The notes under the pieces: model-generated
What the model saw: only the letters and a program-made list of their open reading frames with translations
The model's database searches: none
Told to the model about the DNA's origin: nothing
In this document: positions 3,438 through 51,040 of the stretch, piece after piece
Layout of the letters: every line of letters starts with the position of its first letter
How positions within the stretch are numbered: position 1 is the first letter of the stretch
Made by a program: the position numbers and the translations under genes
NCBI GenBank assembly: GCA_014896255.1
Contig: JADBKT010000008.1
Location: 1 to 64,000 of the forward strand
DNA: 64,000 nucleotides
Direction of reading: 5' to 3'
From: Hydrogenibacillus sp.
Lineage (GTDB): Bacteria > Bacillota > Bacilli > Thermicanales > DSM-22653

Positions 3438-3854
3438 TTATGTTTCTATGGCTTCGTTGCTGTCTTGCTGCATCTGGAGCCAGCGCGTCTTTCGAACCGC
3501 GCCGTACAGCTTGAGCCAGTACAGCAAGAGGATGGCGATGACGGCGATGAGCATTTCCCAGATGTGGACGTTTTGGATGATCACTTTGCGCGCGATGGTA
3601 TAGATCATGATGTCGATGATGAGGACGAAGTCGCGTTTGATGAGCAGAAGCGCGATCTCTAGGCCGATGATGTAAAGCAGCGTATCGGACAAAAACGAAT
3701 GAAACCGCTCCGACAGTTCCCAGGCGAGGATGTAGGTGAACAGGTCCGAGATCATCATCGCCCCTTCCCCGATCACGGCGACGATGATGATCGCCGCGAG
3801 CATCCATTCGAGGAGGCCAATCGCCTTGATCAAATACCGGCTCGGCCGTGACAT
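3438..3854 (-). CDS. Phosphate-starvation-inducible PsiE-like membrane protein
   Basis: About 138 aa with four predicted TM segments (LIKAIGLLEWMLAAIIIVAVIGEGAMMISDLF... LEIALLLIKRDFVLIIDIMIYTIARKVIIQN), PsiE family pattern. Confidence 0.65.
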   Translation of the reverse strand: MSRPSRYLIKAIGLLEWMLAAIIIVAVIGEGAMMISDLFTYILAWELSERFHSFLSDTLLYIIGLEIALLLIKRDFVLIIDIMIYTIARKVIIQNVHIWEMLIAVIAILLLYWLKLYGAVRKTRWLQMQQDSNEAIET

Positions 3855-4002
3855 GGGCGCACCCCTCCGCGGCAGGCCGACGCGCTTTTTCCGTTGCGCG
3901 GGCGGCAGTCTTTTGGGTAGTCTTATACTTAGAGCATAGCGGAAGGACGTGGAAAAGAAAAGCGGTGAAAAAGCGCGAATCGCCGTGAAGGAGGAGAGTG
4001 CC

Positions 4003-5199
4003 GTGCGCCTCAGCGAAGCGGAGATCGAGCGGGCCCTTTTCGATCGCCCAAAGTGGCGGCGCGCCGATGACCGGTGGATCGTCCGCCGCTACATGTGCCG
4101 GACGTTTCCCGAAGCGGTGTCTTTCGTCCGCGCCGTCGCCGAGATCGCCGAAGCCAAGCAGCATCATCCGCTCATCCAGATCGACTACAAAGCCGTGACG
4201 CTCAAGCTGTCCAGCTGGCAGGCCGGGGGCCTGACGGCGCTCGATTTCGAACTCGCCGGCCGGTTCGACGAGGCGTACGAGGCGCTCCGCCGGGAAGAGG
4301 CGGCGCCTCTTCGGACGGAGGCGACAGGCGAGGCGGACGGTCGCCGAACGGCGGCGGGTGCGGTCAGGGCGGCGGAAAAGGCGATCGACCTAAACGCCGA
4401 CGTCGGCGAGGCGGGCGGTGAGGATGCGGAACGAGAGGCGGCCATCATCCGGCTCGCCTCTTCGGTGAATATTGCCTGCGGGGTGCACGCCGGCGACCCC
4501 GATGTCATGAGCCGCGCCGTCCGCGCGGCGCTCACAAGCGGCGCGGCGATCGGGGCGCATCCGGGGCTTCCCGACCGCTTCGGCTTCGGCCGCCGGTGGA
4601 TCGAACTCGCCCCGGATGAAATCGAACGACTCCTCATCTATCAGATCGGAGCGCTTCAGGCCATCGCCCAAGCCGAAGGCGCCCGCCTTGCCCACGTCAA
4701 GCCGCACGGCGCGCTGTACAACCGCGCCGCCGTCGACCGAACGGTCGCCGAGGCCGTCGTCCGCGGCATCGCGCGCGTCGATCCGACGCTTAGGCTTTAT
4801 GCCTTGGCGGACAGCGCCCTGGAAAACGCGGCGCGGGCGGCAGGGTTTTCGGTCGTCCGCGAAGGGTTTGCAGATCGGGCGTATACGCCGGAGGGGCGGC
4901 TCGTCGGGCGCCGCGATCCACAAGCCGTGCATGAGGATCCCGAGCGCGTCGTCCGCCAGGCGGTCGCGCTCGCCGAGGGGCGCCCGTTCCCTGCGGCCGG
5001 CGGGACGTCGATTCGCCTCCGGGTCGATTCGATCTGCTTGCACGGCGACACACCCCGGGCGTTGGCCTTTGCCGCCCGCGTCCGCGAAGCGCTGCTTTCC
5101 GCCGGGTATGCGATCCGCCCCCCAGGCGCGACGCCGTCTCGCAATACCGAACGTCATCCTAAGCAGCGGCGCGATGCCGGGGAAGGGGAGTTTCGTTGA
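4003..5199 (+). CDS. pxpA: Fusion protein: pterin-4a-carbinolamine dehydratase domain + 5-oxoprolinase subunit A (LamB/YcsF, PxpA)
   Basis: GTG start after AAGGAGGAG. N-term LSEAEIERALFDRPKWRRADDRWIVRRYMCRTFPEAVSFVRAVAEIAEAKQHHPLIQIDYKAVTLKLSSWQAGGLTALDFELA (PCD with ExxxHHP); C-term IDLNADVGEAGGEDAEREAAIIRLASSVNIACGVHAGDP...HVKPHGALYN (PxpA). Confidence 0.85.
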   Translation: MRLSEAEIERALFDRPKWRRADDRWIVRRYMCRTFPEAVSFVRAVAEIAEAKQHHPLIQIDYKAVTLKLSSWQAGGLTALDFELAGRFDEAYEALRREEAAPLRTEATGEADGRRTAAGAVRAAEKAIDLNADVGEAGGEDAEREAAIIRLASSVNIACGVHAGDPDVMSRAVRAALTSGAAIGAHPGLPDRFGFGRRWIELAPDEIERLLIYQIGALQAIAQAEGARLAHVKPHGALYNRAAVDRTVAEAVVRGIARVDPTLRLYALADSALENAARAAGFSVVREGFADRAYTPEGRLVGRRDPQAVHEDPERVVRQAVALAEGRPFPAAGGTSIRLRVDSICLHGDTPRALAFAARVREALLSAGYAIRPPGATPSRNTERHPKQRRDAGEGEFR

Positions 5200-45155: not shown

Positions 45156-45236
45156 GCGTTTGGGCGAATGCTTTCGAGTGCCTCGTGGCGTGCGCTTTTG
45201 ATGCCGAGCGACGGGGAGGGAGGATCGGCGCCGGGA

Positions 45237-46343
45237 ATGTGGGATGAACTCTGGTATCGGACCGATCTGTCGGCGATGGACTTTATCGACGTGCTCCGAT
45301 CTGTCGGCATCTTCGTGGCCTTTTACGTCGCCCGGGTCGTTTTTGAGCGGACGATCGGTCGGCATCTTGCGCGATATGCGGAACGGAACGGCGAGGCCGT
45401 CGCCGCTTCTCTCATTCAAGCATTCGGGCGTCCGCTGCGGGTGCTCTGGTCGCTCATCGGGCTCTATTTGGCGCTCATCGTCCTCGGTCCGCCGCTATGG
45501 CTGAAGATGGCCTTTCAAAAAATCGTCCGCGTCGTCATCCTCGTGTTCGTCGCCTGGGGCTTTTACAATTTGACGGACCGCTCGGCGGAATGGGTGCGTC
45601 GCCTCGGGATGCGCCACGGCGTAGAGTTCCGGACGATGCTTTTGCCGCTCATCAGCCATGTGTTCCGCTTTCTTGTTCTGGCGGTGGCCTTTACGGTGCT
45701 GCTTCAGGAATTCGGATACCGCATCGACTCCTTGATCGCCGGGCTCGGCCTGGGGGGACTGGCGGTTTCTCTCGCGGCGAAAGACACATTGTCCAATCTG
45801 TTCGGCGGGGCGGTCATTTTGTTCGAAAAGACGTTTGCCGTCGGCGACTGGATCGAGACGCCGGCGGTGAGCGGAACGGTGGAGGAGATCACCATCCGCA
45901 GCACGAAGATCCGCACCTTCGATCAGGGGCTGGTGATCATCCCCAATTCGCTGCTCGTCGGCGGGGCGATCAAAAACTGGAGCAAGATGGGCAAACGGCG
46001 GATCCTGTTCAACCTGCCGCTTGAAATCGGCACCTCTCCGGAACGCATCGCCCGCTTGGTCGGGCGGTTGAAAAACGATCTTCTGCAAGATCCCGACGTT
46101 CATCCGGATGGGGTGTACGTCGCCTTCGAGCAATTCGCCGAATCGTCGCTTTCCGTTTTGATTTCTTTTTTTACCCGGACGACGAAGTACGACGAGTGGC
46201 TGGCGATCAAAGAACGCATCAATCTACACATCTTGAGGCTGTTGGAAGCCGAGGGCGTGCGTTTGGCCGTGCCGTCGCGGACGGTGTATGTCCGCGCGGA
46301 TGAACCGGGGCCGACGGAAGCGATGAAAGACAACAGGGACTGA
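45237..46343 (+). CDS. Mechanosensitive ion channel family protein (MscS-like)
   Basis: GLGLGGLAVSLAAKDTLSNLFGGAVILFEKTFAVGDWIETPAVSGTVEEITIRSTKIRTFDQGLVIIPNSLLVGGAIKNWSKMGKRRI. Confidence 0.9.
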   Translation: MWDELWYRTDLSAMDFIDVLRSVGIFVAFYVARVVFERTIGRHLARYAERNGEAVAASLIQAFGRPLRVLWSLIGLYLALIVLGPPLWLKMAFQKIVRVVILVFVAWGFYNLTDRSAEWVRRLGMRHGVEFRTMLLPLISHVFRFLVLAVAFTVLLQEFGYRIDSLIAGLGLGGLAVSLAAKDTLSNLFGGAVILFEKTFAVGDWIETPAVSGTVEEITIRSTKIRTFDQGLVIIPNSLLVGGAIKNWSKMGKRRILFNLPLEIGTSPERIARLVGRLKNDLLQDPDVHPDGVYVAFEQFAESSLSVLISFFTRTTKYDEWLAIKERINLHILRLLEAEGVRLAVPSRTVYVRADEPGPTEAMKDNRD

Positions 46344-46346
46344 ACG

Positions 46347-46490
46347 GGCGATGGCGTTCGCCTCAAACCGCCGAGCACCGCTGAACGATCGGGAACGATC
46401 CGGCTCGATGAGAGCGCGGGGAGATCGATCGCTCGAACGGTGGCCGCTTCGGCTGATGACGCCTACTCTCAGGATGGGGGTAGGCGTTTT
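46347..46490 (+). ncRNA. Fluoride riboswitch (crcB motif) with terminator-like expression platform
   Basis: GGCGATGGCGTTCGCC...AACCGC at the 5' end and CTGATGACGCCTAC (about 46453-46466) at the 3' end; ACGCCTAC pairs with GTAGGCGT (46480-46487) followed by TTTT; 33 nt before crcB. Confidence 0.88.
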
Positions 46491-46522
46491 GTGATGAAAA
46501 AATTGCAGGAGGGGTTGACGAG

Positions 46523-46954
46523 TTGCGCGCATCGTTTCAATCATTCATCGGCGTCGGCGTGTTCGGCGCTTCTGGGGCGCTTTTGCGCGCCGGGGCGAGC
46601 GCCTGGTTTCCGGCATACGGCTTTCCGTGGAGCACGTTTGCCGTCAACGTCGTCGGAGCGTTTGCCTTGGGCTGGCTTGCGGTGTATGCGTCGAGAAGAC
46701 AAAAGGAGCGATGTCTTCTTTTTTGCGGCACCGGTTTTCTCGGCGGTCTCACGACATATTCGACGATGAGCGCGGAAGCGTGGGCCGATATGATGAATCA
46801 AAAAGCCGTCTTGGGAGTTTTCTATCTTCTGCTCAGCGCCGCGATCGGCTTGATGAGCGTCGCCCTCGGGCGGACGATCGCCGAGCGCGTTCTGCCGCCT
46901 CTGGACGACGCAACGCTCAGCGACGGGCGACGGAAGGGAGAGCAAGGCCGATGA
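46523..46954 (+). CDS. crcB: Fluoride efflux transporter CrcB (Fluc), copy 1
   Basis: GVFGASGALLRAGASAWFPAYGFPWSTFAVNVVGAFALGWL; GTGFLGGLTTYSTMSAEAW; SD GGAGG. Confidence 0.93.
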   Translation: MRASFQSFIGVGVFGASGALLRAGASAWFPAYGFPWSTFAVNVVGAFALGWLAVYASRRQKERCLLFCGTGFLGGLTTYSTMSAEAWADMMNQKAVLGVFYLLLSAAIGLMSVALGRTIAERVLPPLDDATLSDGRRKGEQGR

Positions 46955-47337
46955 GCTTGGCGACGATCCTCGCCGTTTTCGTCGGCGGTTTTTTCGGGGC
47001 GGCGCTGCGCTACGCCTTAAGCGCTCCGCTGAACGCCCGCGCGGCGGCCGAGCGGGCGATGTTTCCCTGGGGGACGCTGTTCGTCAACAGCACGGGGGCG
47101 TTCGGGTTCGGCGTCGTGAGCGCGCTCGTCGTCGATCCGCTCCTTCGACAGGCGCTACTCACCGGCTTTATGGGCGCCTATACGACGTTTTCCACGCTGA
47201 TGCTGGAGATCGACACGAGGCTCCGGGGCGGAAGGCTTTGGGCGGCGATCTTCTATGCCGTCGTTTCGTTCGTCGGCGGGCCGTTTTGGGTCGCGCTGGG
47301 GAAGATTTTCACGGATGTTTTCATACCAACGGTTTGA
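46951..47337 (+). CDS. crcB: Fluoride efflux transporter CrcB (Fluc), copy 2
   Basis: VGGFFGAALRYALSAPLN...FPWGTLFVNSTGAFGFGVV; TGFMGAYTTFSTLMLE; start overlaps the copy 1 stop. Confidence 0.93.
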   Translation: MSLATILAVFVGGFFGAALRYALSAPLNARAAAERAMFPWGTLFVNSTGAFGFGVVSALVVDPLLRQALLTGFMGAYTTFSTLMLEIDTRLRGGRLWAAIFYAVVSFVGGPFWVALGKIFTDVFIPTV

Positions 47338-47362
47338 CAAGCGGAAGTCCGAAGGGTACGAT
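47334..47362 (+). promoter_or_regulatory. Sigma-A-type promoter for the corA cluster
   Basis: TTGACA (47334-47339), 17-nt spacer, TACGAT (47357-47362), overlapping the crcB2 stop. Confidence 0.55.
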
Positions 47363-47502
47363 GAACATGCCGTTTTTAGTTTTTATATGAAGAAAGGGGG
47401 GATCGGCATGGGAAGTTCGGGCTTGGCCGAGGGGGATAGGGATCCGGTTGTTTTCGAGGGCCGTGATGTCGCGCCAAGACACGACCATAGGAGGGCTCAT
47501 GG

Positions 47503-48435
47503 ATGCTTACGATTTATCAAAGCGACGCTCAGGGCGGTCTGGCCTCCGTCGACGAGATCGGCAGAAACACGTGGGTACACCTTATCGCGCCGACGGAGGC
47601 GGAGATCGAGCGGGTGGTCTCGACCCTCGGCGTGCCGCGGGACTTTCTGCTCGATCCCCTTGATGTCGATGAGCGGCCGCGGGTGGAAAAAGACGAAGCC
47701 GGCGTGCTCATCATCTTAAGCGTCCCGTACCCGACGGGAGATGATCCGGTGCCGTACCGGACGGTACCCGTCGGGGTCATCCATACCCCGGACGTGTTGG
47801 TCACCGTTTGCCGCATGGACCATCCGATCTTTCATCCGTTCCGATCCGGCCAGGTGAAAGGCTTCTATACCCATATGAAAACGCGGTTTACGCTGCAGCT
47901 GATGAACCACATCGCTCGGCATTATCTGCGTGATCTGAATGATCTCAACGGGCGCATCGCCGAAGCCGAAGCGGCACTGCAACGGTCGATGCGCAACCGC
48001 GAAGTGTATATTTTGCTGAATATCAACAAAAGCCTCGTCTACTTTACGACGGCGCTTCGCGTCAATCGCGGCGTTATGCAGAAATTGACTCGTGAAACAT
48101 ATATGAAAATGTATGAAGACGATGAAGAATTGTTGCAAGACGCGATCGTCGAGATGCAGCAAGCCCTCGATGCGTCGGACATCCACAGTGAAAACTTGAG
48201 CAACCTCATGGACGCCTATGCGGCGATCATTCAGAACAACGTGAACACGGTGCTGAAGATCTTGACCGCGCTCACCATCATCCTGGCCATCCCCACGATG
48301 ATCGCCAGCATCTACGGCATGAACGTCCCCCTGCCGTATCAAGACTCTCCGTATGCCTTTCCGGTGTTGATGGGCCTGGCGCTGGTCATCGGGCTTTCGA
48401 CCGGCTGGGCGTTCTATCGCATGCGCCTCTTTTGA
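47503..48435 (+). CDS. corA: CorA-family (2-TM-GxN) divalent cation transporter, copy 1 (YGMN motif)
   Basis: SD AGGAGGG; NTWVHLIAPTEAEIERVVSTLGVPRDFLLDPLDVDERPRVEKDE; two C-terminal TMs with IYGMNVPL. Confidence 0.92.
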   Translation: MLTIYQSDAQGGLASVDEIGRNTWVHLIAPTEAEIERVVSTLGVPRDFLLDPLDVDERPRVEKDEAGVLIILSVPYPTGDDPVPYRTVPVGVIHTPDVLVTVCRMDHPIFHPFRSGQVKGFYTHMKTRFTLQLMNHIARHYLRDLNDLNGRIAEAEAALQRSMRNREVYILLNINKSLVYFTTALRVNRGVMQKLTRETYMKMYEDDEELLQDAIVEMQQALDASDIHSENLSNLMDAYAAIIQNNVNTVLKILTALTIILAIPTMIASIYGMNVPLPYQDSPYAFPVLMGLALVIGLSTGWAFYRMRLF

Positions 48436-48522
48436 GGTTCGCGCCGGGTTCGAAGCGCGGCATTGCGGCGCGGTCCGTTGGGTGCTTAAAGCGGCGATGG
48501 TCGCGCGCATGGAGGGATGAAC

Positions 48523-49506
48523 ATGCTTACGGTCTATACGACGACACCGGACGGGCGCATCGAGACGGCAGACGGTTTTCCGCACAATGCGCTCATCGTC
48601 TTGGTCGCGCCGACGCCCGAGGAGATTCGAGCGGTGGCTTGTGCCTTCCGCCTCGATGAAGCGTACTTGCGCGATGCCCTCGATGCCGAAGAGCGGCCGC
48701 GGGTGGAAAAAGGCGAGACGGAAGACGGACGATCGCTCGTCGCGCTCATCCTCGGGATCCCGATGGAGAACGACGCCGCCGAGGCCGCCGGACGGCAGTT
48801 GCCGTACGAAGCCATGCCTTACCGCGTCATGCCTTTTTCGCTGATCCATCTGAAAGATCATTTGATCATCGTCATGCCGGAGGAGCATCCGACCCTTGAA
48901 GCGGTGCTCGCCGGTCGGTTCGGCCCGTACGCGACGTACATGAAAACGCGGATCACCTTGCTTTTTTTCCAGGCCGTCGCATCGGCGTTTTTGCGGACGC
49001 TGGACGCGCTTCGCGCCGACATCGCTCGGCTTCAGCGGGAGCTCAAAGCCGCGCACCGCAACCGCGAGCTGTACGGACTCATCCACATCAACAAAAGCCT
49101 CGTCTATTTCGCCGCGGCCTTGCGGGGGCTTAGGACGGTCTATCAGCGGCTTCTCCGAGGCGGAGACATGCATCTGTATGCGGACGATGCCCAACTTTTG
49201 CGCGACGCGCTCGTGGATATCGAGCAGGCGCTGGAAGTGACGGAGATGCGCGCGGAGAGCTTGAGCTCGCTCATGGACGCCTATGCGGCGATCATCCACA
49301 ACAACGTGAACGCCGTGCTCAAGATATTGACGACGCTCACCATCGTGCTCACCATTCCGACGATGATCGCCAGCGTTTTCGCCATGAACGTCGGGCTGCC
49401 GTTTGAAGAGGCGCCGTGGATGTTCGGACTCCTGCTCTCGCTGATGACCCTCTCCGGCACCTCGCTCGTCGTATACTTTTACCGGAAAAACTTTTTGCGC
49501 CTGTAA
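48523..49506 (+). CDS. CorA-family transporter, copy 2 (FAMN motif)
   Basis: MLTVYTTTPDGR... paralogous to copy 1; DAEERPRVEKGE; VFAMNVGLPF at the signature position. Confidence 0.9.
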   Translation: MLTVYTTTPDGRIETADGFPHNALIVLVAPTPEEIRAVACAFRLDEAYLRDALDAEERPRVEKGETEDGRSLVALILGIPMENDAAEAAGRQLPYEAMPYRVMPFSLIHLKDHLIIVMPEEHPTLEAVLAGRFGPYATYMKTRITLLFFQAVASAFLRTLDALRADIARLQRELKAAHRNRELYGLIHINKSLVYFAAALRGLRTVYQRLLRGGDMHLYADDAQLLRDALVDIEQALEVTEMRAESLSSLMDAYAAIIHNNVNAVLKILTTLTIVLTIPTMIASVFAMNVGLPFEEAPWMFGLLLSLMTLSGTSLVVYFYRKNFLRL

Positions 49507-49517
49507 GGGGGATCGCC

Positions 49518-50465
49518 GTGCGCGCGGTGTATGTGAGCCGACCCGAAGGCGGCTTGATGACGGCGGAAGCGATCGAGAAAAACAGCTGGATCCACCTGAC
49601 GGCGCCGTCCGACGACGAACTGCGCGAGGCGGCGGAGGCCGCGTTCGTGCCGGAGGCGCTCTTGCGCGCCGCGCTCGACCCCGACGAGCAACCGCGGATC
49701 GAACGACGCGACGGCGCGGTGCTGATCGTCATCCACGTGCCGTACGAAGATCTTGCGGCGCGCAAGTCGAAGGACGGACCGATCTATCGCCTCATGCCCG
49801 TCGGCATCGTCCACGGGAAAGACCACCTGGTGACCGTCGCCCGGCGCGAGGTCCCGCTCTTTGCGCCTTTTTTCCAGGGCCGGATGAACGGCTTGGCCAC
49901 GCATATGAAAACGCGCCTCACGCTCAAAATCTTGGTCGCCGTCGCCGCGGCGTACTTGAAAACCGTCCACGCCGTGCAGCGCGACGTCGAACAGGCGGAA
50001 ACCGAACTCGCCCGCTCCTACCGTAATGACGAGCTGTATACGCTGCTTTTCGCCGACGAAAGCCTGATCTATCTCGAGACGTCCTTGGCCCAGATGCGCG
50101 CGGTGCTGCGTAAAATCCAAAACGGCGATTACATTAAACTATATGCGGATGATGCCGATCTGCTGGAAGATGCGGTGATCGACCTGGAGCAGGCGCTGGG
50201 CGCCGCAGAAGTGCATCAGCAGAAGCTGAACAACGTCATGGACGCCTACGGCAACGTGATCCAGATCAATGTGAACGCCGTCTTAAAACTGCTCACCGCG
50301 CTGACGGTCCTGCTTTCGGTGCCGATTTTGCTGGCCAGCGTCTTTTCGATGAACGTCCCACTGTACATCGAAGACCGTCCGCACGGCTTTCTCATCGTGA
50401 TGACGCTGATGTCCGTCGTGACGGCGACGGTGGGGTGGGTTTTTTATCGTTTGCGGTTCTTTTGA
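49518..50465 (+). CDS. CorA-family transporter, copy 3 (FSMN motif)
   Basis: GTG start; NSWIHLTAPSDDELREAAEAAFVPEALLRAALDPDEQPRIERRD; VFSMNVPLYI at the signature position. Confidence 0.9.
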   Translation: MRAVYVSRPEGGLMTAEAIEKNSWIHLTAPSDDELREAAEAAFVPEALLRAALDPDEQPRIERRDGAVLIVIHVPYEDLAARKSKDGPIYRLMPVGIVHGKDHLVTVARREVPLFAPFFQGRMNGLATHMKTRLTLKILVAVAAAYLKTVHAVQRDVEQAETELARSYRNDELYTLLFADESLIYLETSLAQMRAVLRKIQNGDYIKLYADDADLLEDAVIDLEQALGAAEVHQQKLNNVMDAYGNVIQINVNAVLKLLTALTVLLSVPILLASVFSMNVPLYIEDRPHGFLIVMTLMSVVTATVGWVFYRLRFF

Positions 50466-50524: not shown

Positions 50525-51040
50525 ATGCGTATCCGGCACGTGGGGCGGACGGCGTTCAGTTTAAGCGCTCTCGTTTATCTCATCATCGGGGCGTTGTTTG
50601 CTTTGCCGAAAGTCTCGGCGCCGTTCGACACCTCCTTTTTGCCGCCGCTCATCGCCGGTTTCAACGCTCTGGCGACGGTCTTTTTGCTGTTCGCCTATGC
50701 CGCCATCCGTCGTCGGCAGATCGAGACGCACCGCCGTTGGATCTTCGCCGCCCTCGCCTCGACGGCGTTGTTTTTGATCAGCTATGTGACCTATCATCTG
50801 ACGACGCCTTCCACGCCATACGGCGGGAGCGGCGCGCTGAAAATCATCTATTACGTCCTCTTGATCAGCCACATCGTCCTCGCCGCGGTCATCGTTCCGC
50901 TCGTCCTTTTGGCGCTCTTCCGCGGCTTGAACCGCGAAGACGCCAAACATCGGCGCATCGTCCGCTATGCCTATCCGCTGTGGCTGTATGTGTCCTTAAG
51001 CGGTGTGCTCGTCTATCTCATGATCGCTCCGTACTATTGA
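50525..51040 (+). CDS. DUF420 domain-containing membrane protein (CtaM/YozB-like)
   Basis: FLPPLIAGFNALATVFLLFAYAAIRRRQIETHRRWIFAALASTALFLISYVTYHLTTPSTPYGGSGALKIIYYVLLISHIVLA. Confidence 0.85.
   Translation: MRIRHVGRTAFSLSALVYLIIGALFALPKVSAPFDTSFLPPLIAGFNALATVFLLFAYAAIRRRQIETHRRWIFAALASTALFLISYVTYHLTTPSTPYGGSGALKIIYYVLLISHIVLAAVIVPLVLLALFRGLNREDAKHRRIVRYAYPLWLYVSLSGVLVYLMIAPYY

Follow-up and report, generated by a model that had tools for sequence, protein, structure and literature searches.

What three tandem corA genes are doing directly downstream of a fluoride-export unit is the question raised by a 64,000-nt stretch of a Hydrogenibacillus sp. genome (assembly GCA_014896255.1, contig JADBKT010000008.1, positions 1 to 64,000; hereafter, the window). 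Here, a fluoride riboswitch and two crcB genes precede the three CorA-family genes (hereafter, the trio), and a reading made from the letters without database searches (hereafter, the sequence-only reading) proposed a possible fluoride/divalent-cation island. Comparison across bacterial genomes points to a different answer: the trio is an ancient, block-inherited Mg2+-uptake operon, and its products most likely form one heteropentameric CorA channel, an assembly that we favor with moderate confidence given the co-conservation of the three genes, their fixed order, pore residues that differ strictly by subunit, and the finding that CorA2 almost never occurs alone.

The three corA genes of the window

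47503..48435, plus strand: corA1 (PF01544, E 2e-54)
48517..49506, plus strand: corA2 (PF01544, E 1e-43)
49518..50465, plus strand: corA3 (PF01544, E 5e-47)

PF01544 covers the full length of all three products, which share 44–45% mutual identity, bearing out the earlier description of three consecutive same-strand CorA genes; the corA3 start once placed at 49416 is most likely the GTG at 49518 instead. The 1.9-Mb genome holds no further CorA gene, and a search of it for MgtE found none. The family assignment held, with an overlooked detail in the selectivity filter. CorA1 has a canonical pore, with Asn248 and the GMN signature (Gly272-Met-Asn, as YGMN), and is 84% and 74% identical to its two orthologues in the family Hydrogenibacillaceae. 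CorA2 carries AMN and CorA3 carries SMN, so that neither has the GMN (GxN) signature; their orthologues in the family have TIN or AMN (CorA2) and SMN (CorA3). Fold and descent make both of them CorA homologues, albeit ones lacking the signature glycine. The AlphaFold2 model of CorA2 (predicted local distance difference test score 88.7) returned CorA structures as its top fold matches in Foldseek (E down to 9e-16). The solved structures closest to the trio proteins are 4ev6, 4cy4, and 4i0u.

Distribution and origin of the trio

A CorA3 alignment run against 84,980 species genomes picked out 22 loci, 20 of which contain a complete trio in the order corA1-corA2-corA3. The hosts are Hydrogenibacillaceae, Lysinibacillus, metagenome-assembled genomes (MAGs) of Neisseriaceae, Ignatzschineria, Wohlfahrtiimonas, Alcaligenaceae/Paenalcaligenes, and Acinetobacter. 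The other two loci are cut off (L056) or decayed (L059). In the latter, from a Bacillales MAG, an M-box is followed by frame-shifted CorA-trio remnants (3852-4851), which may be a copy in decay or artefacts of assembly. Surveys with a CorA2 alignment (counts include the genome at the center of each survey) found the trio in 1 of 399 Bacillota genomes, 1/392 in the order of Acinetobacter, 4/200 in the family of Lysinibacillus, 13/32 in the order of Ignatzschineria, and 1/399 in the order of Paenalcaligenes. The trio is thus rare and patchy, in agreement with the earlier impression that such a row of corA genes is out of the ordinary. Five loci from outside the query set (L096, L098, L102, L105, and L107) have the same arrangement, L098 ending with its contig after corA2, and the gene order is fixed in 25 complete loci of Bacillota and Pseudomonadota. 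CorA2-type proteins occur only inside trios in the surveyed genomes, always adjacent to CorA1 and, except at one contig end, to CorA3; corA2 thus serves as the diagnostic gene of the arrangement.

In phylogenetic trees, corA1, corA2, and corA3 each formed an orthologous clade (Shimodaira–Hasegawa-like approximate likelihood-ratio test [SH-aLRT] support of 97, 100, and 78 in the smaller set), and a single origin of all trio CorAs relative to the outgroups was not rejected (approximately unbiased test, p-AU 0.44). In close pairs, the ratio of nonsynonymous to synonymous substitution rates (dN/dS) was 0.02–0.18 for corA1, corA2, and corA3, indicating purifying selection, and, outside Hydrogenibacillaceae, CorA2 evolves more slowly than the other two in most pairs. 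These results bear on the simplest explanation, an ordinary tandem duplication for gene dosage that left relaxed, drifting copies. The adjacency and mutual identity of the paralogues would suit it, as would the faster divergence of CorA2 and CorA3 than of CorA1 in the genus of the window; however, the copies arose before the host lineages diverged, the three clades and their order are stable, and the selective constraint is not that of drifting genes, which makes this explanation very improbable.

Rarity, patchiness, and inheritance as a block fit the spread of the trio by horizontal transfer, as an inference from its distribution. Tblastn searches of plasmid and phage records gave only matches below 60% identity; of two plasmid contexts viewed, one held a lone CorA and the other had no annotation. 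No non-CorA neighbor is conserved across phyla (alaS, DsbA, an ABC transporter, YceI, and others occur), Mg genes in Lysinibacillus excepted.

Predicted Mg2+ control of the trio in other hosts

Outside Hydrogenibacillaceae, an M-box Mg2+ riboswitch (RF00380) precedes the trio in 21 loci, one decayed trio included, at 127–149 bits (gathering score 44). It was found in every readable upstream region, the exceptions being four loci with cut or short upstream DNA (L045, L056, L105, and L107), and its 3' end lies about 90–480 nt before corA1 in the 17 loci measured. M-boxes are almost always located upstream of Mg2+ transporters (PMC4072509), and we infer from this placement that the trio is a Mg2+-starvation uptake operon, with Mg2+ as its likely cargo. 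In most hosts, low Mg2+ would switch the operon on through the M-box.

Several Lysinibacillus loci add further Mg genes. Opposite two of the trios lies a divergently oriented unit of Mg genes with its own M-box (L040 4906-6940, L041 6815-6989), and a MgtE gene lies 3' of the trio of Lysinibacillus alkalisoli. The divergent unit of L040 has an MgtC gene beside one for an MgtE_N-CBS protein that lacks the MgtE membrane domain. Two tandem M-boxes precede the L. alkalisoli trio (L057 7579-7749 and 7866-8028).

Pore residues and the case for a heteropentamer

Using the numbering of the window CorA1, positions 272 and 248 align with G312 and N288 of Thermotoga maritima CorA (TmCorA). Ordinary CorA proteins have Gly272 and Asn248 in 38/38 cases each. 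CorA2 never has the glycine (0/26; 22 Ser, 3 Ala, and 1 Thr) and always has the asparagine (26/26). Conversely, outside Hydrogenibacillaceae, all CorA1 and CorA3 proteins have Gly272 within GMN but Ser248, with no exception. Within Hydrogenibacillaceae, CorA1 has both canonical residues, and Gly272 is missing from CorA2 and CorA3 alike. Neighboring columns covary with the filter (Tyr271/Gln280 with Gly272; Phe271/Glu280 with Ser/Ala272), and no clear distinction between subunits emerged at the D89/D253 regulatory-site columns. Published work describes GMN conservation as universal, with Mg2+ coordinated by the Gly312 carbonyls, and reports that the TmCorA N288L substitution abolishes Co2+ transport (PMC3629940).

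These reciprocal losses suggest that CorA1, CorA2, and CorA3 would assemble into a single pentamer, whose filter ring would mix GMN subunits with a subunit bearing Ser, Ala, or Thr in place of Gly. Outside Hydrogenibacillaceae, CorA2 would supply the pore Asn without the Gly, and CorA1 and CorA3 would supply GMN without the Asn. The fuller proposition, an obligate heteropentamer of three paralogues with a mixed filter, encoded by an M-box-controlled cassette that spread across phyla, is tentative and falls a little short of an even chance.

A serious, if unlikely, rival is that the genes encode three separate homopentameric channels that are co-regulated and differ in affinity or ion selectivity, the CorA2 filter shifting selectivity as ZntB-type variants do. 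It draws on the observations that all three proteins are full-length, intact, and under purifying selection, that every solved CorA encountered was described as a homopentamer, that CorA1 is the one window protein of the three with every canonical pore residue, and that Ser in place of Gly could retain the backbone carbonyl. What lowers its probability is that CorA2 was never seen without CorA1, and without CorA3 only at a contig end, that the pore-residue losses are reciprocal between subunits, and that three different ion specificities would make little evident sense under a single Mg2+ riboswitch shared by all three genes.

Several points weigh against the heteropentamer that we favor. Because it is the backbone carbonyl of Gly312 that coordinates the ion (PMC3629940), the position may accept Ser or Ala, and CorA2 homopentamers could work; the N288S change of the trio is milder than the tested N288L. 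The residue patterns common to the trios reflect descent and not independent events, and other trio-bearing genomes also carry separate CorA genes. Finally, the faster divergence of CorA2 and CorA3 in the genus of the window implies that the subunit partnership may be loosening in Hydrogenibacillaceae, where CorA1 could work alone.

The fluoride unit and the trio promoter

45168..46343, plus strand: mscS-type mechanosensitive channel gene (PF00924)
46338..46472, plus strand: fluoride riboswitch aptamer (RF01734; cmscan 50.5 bits, E 5e-11)
46458..46490, plus strand: intrinsic terminator serving as predicted expression platform, with a 14-bp hairpin (46458-46488), a GGA loop, and a short U tail (from sequence and RNA folding)
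46523..46954, plus strand: crcB1, Fluc subunit, TTG start (PF02537, E 4e-23)
46951..47337, plus strand: crcB2, Fluc subunit (PF02537, E 3e-24)
47334..47362, plus strand: corA-trio promoter TTGACA-N17-TACGAT, overlapping the crcB2 stop (from sequence, conserved in relatives)
50525..51040, plus strand: DUF420 membrane protein gene (PF04238)

The riboswitch proposed by the sequence-only reading scores well above the RF01734 gathering score of 34 bits in the covariance-model check and is the sole Rfam match (cmscan) in the window; it carries a 73-nt insertion inside one loop. The overlapping terminator was also recovered: its hairpin shares the 3' part of the aptamer and sits just 5' of crcB1, the usual layout of a transcriptional ON switch. 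The two crcB open reading frames overlap, as described, by the sequence ATGA, and their products are 34% identical. Fluc 5a40 is the solved structure nearest to CrcB1; CrcB1 has TTYSTM and CrcB2 has TTFSTL where 5a40 has TTFSTF, and one pore of a putative CrcB1/CrcB2 heterodimer may be altered. By analogy with the established role of this RNA family, the view that the riboswitch controls crcB is probably correct: F- binding to the aptamer would block formation of the overlapping terminator and permit crcB expression, and the two subunits would form a heterodimeric Fluc exporting F-.

The trio has its own promoter, since the same element (TTGACA-N17-TA[CG]GAT) lies 131–158 nt before the corA1 start codon in all three trio-bearing Hydrogenibacillaceae (the window genome, Hydrogenibacillus schlegelii MA 48 of the same genus, and Ca. 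Carbobacillus altaicus of the same family), whatever gene is upstream; the promoter-like sequence noticed earlier is therefore present and conserved. No M-box was detected before the window trio, either at the gathering score or at E up to 10, nor at the H. schlegelii and Carbobacillus loci. The window corA1 leader contains no other RNA element at E up to 10 and folds no better than shuffled sequences (z 0.04). The trio of Hydrogenibacillaceae has lost its M-box and come to lie near crcB, and it would run from its own vegetative promoter. It also supplies the only CorA proteins of the genome there, and a search for MgtE came back empty.

Both relatives have all three corA genes and, next after them, the DUF420 gene, which is retained 3' of corA3 in 3/3 trio-bearing members and in that family only; it is possibly an additional operon member there. 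H. schlegelii has a crcB pair in the same position as the window, with no fluoride riboswitch at the locus even at E 10 (cmscan). In Carbobacillus, a riboswitch (RF01734, 35.6 bits, L025 2592-2745) with a 91-nt loop insertion heads the crcB pair, and this block lies upstream of nfo and mscS, two genes from the trio, so that mscS directly precedes corA1. A genome search with RF01734 reported only half of the window riboswitch, probably owing to the 73-nt insertion; absence in relatives was therefore judged by cmscan of the extracted loci. Two further small genomes of the family (G002 and G004) have a crcB pair without a riboswitch, and searches of both for CorA and MgtE came up empty (P-type ATPase and NrmT were not searched). 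CRISPR repeats of the CRISPR-DR2 type lie near the crcB pair of G002 (L029 55-283).

These comparisons bear on the proposed island, in which the fluoride riboswitch would drive crcB1-crcB2-corA1-2-3 and Mg2+ import would offset fluoride stress. In the window, crcB2 and corA1 are on the same strand, 165 nt apart, and no terminator was predicted between them, so read-through is possible; in each of the three trio-bearing Hydrogenibacillaceae, moreover, no more than about 3 kb separates crcB from the trio. Against this stand the conserved corA1 promoter, the missing riboswitch of H. schlegelii, and the different gene order of Carbobacillus, on which grounds the island was rejected as the principal explanation. 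In addition, the suggested survey of crcB–corA neighborhoods showed that the adjacency is not kept outside Hydrogenibacillaceae: no crcB occurs in the trio flanks there (up to 10 kb examined), the M-box being used instead, even though crcB is present somewhere in 18/18 trio-bearing genomes tested. We thus regard the island as quite improbable. The riboswitch-crcB-crcB block is most likely a self-contained fluoride-export unit, with trio transcription presumably independent of fluoride. A review noted that operons carrying fluoride exporters are enriched in divalent cation transporters (PMC11139923), which leaves room for a weak fluoride–cation link in Hydrogenibacillaceae.

Comparison with known systems

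The fluoride unit matches known fluoride riboswitches with paired Fluc (crcB) genes (PMC11139923) in its aptamer, overlapping terminator, and adjacent crcB pair; the sole difference is the unusually long loop insertions in the window and in Carbobacillus. The idea of fluoride–Mg coupling is largely removed. An M-box before corA genes is likewise a known arrangement (PMC4072509). Compared with other M-box (ykoK) transporter genes, that of the trio fronts a three-gene CorA operon, in Pseudomonadota as well, and was lost in Hydrogenibacillaceae; tandem CorA operons under M-box control are thereby added in Pseudomonadota.

The trio proteins share with the CorA family (PF01544; T. maritima, M. jannaschii) the fold, the length, two C-terminal transmembrane helices, and the MN of the filter. 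They differ from the T. maritima and M. jannaschii proteins in being three co-conserved paralogues of one operon, from canonical CorA in lacking the GMN glycine (CorA2 throughout, CorA3 within Hydrogenibacillaceae only), and from TmCorA in the Ser that replaces the N288 equivalent in CorA1 and CorA3 outside that family. CorA channels have been modelled as homopentamers with an invariant GMN, whereas every trio combines GMN subunits with a subunit lacking the glycine. With two otherwise invariant pore residues split between subunits, it offers a natural system for probing each filter position, for studying asymmetric gating, and for asking what a cell gains from a mixed Mg2+ channel. We found no description of tandem CorA trios, or of natural GMN-glycine loss in them, in the open-access literature; subscription papers lay outside the search, and the novelty is therefore provisional. 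A parallel comes from yeast mitochondria, where Sponder et al. in 2010 (cited in PMC13022745) reportedly described two CorA-type paralogues, Mrs2 and Lpe10, one modulating the other. Both yeast proteins are said to carry GMN. That Mg2+ channel is eukaryotic and has two subunits; in the bacterial trio there are three, and the filter is altered.

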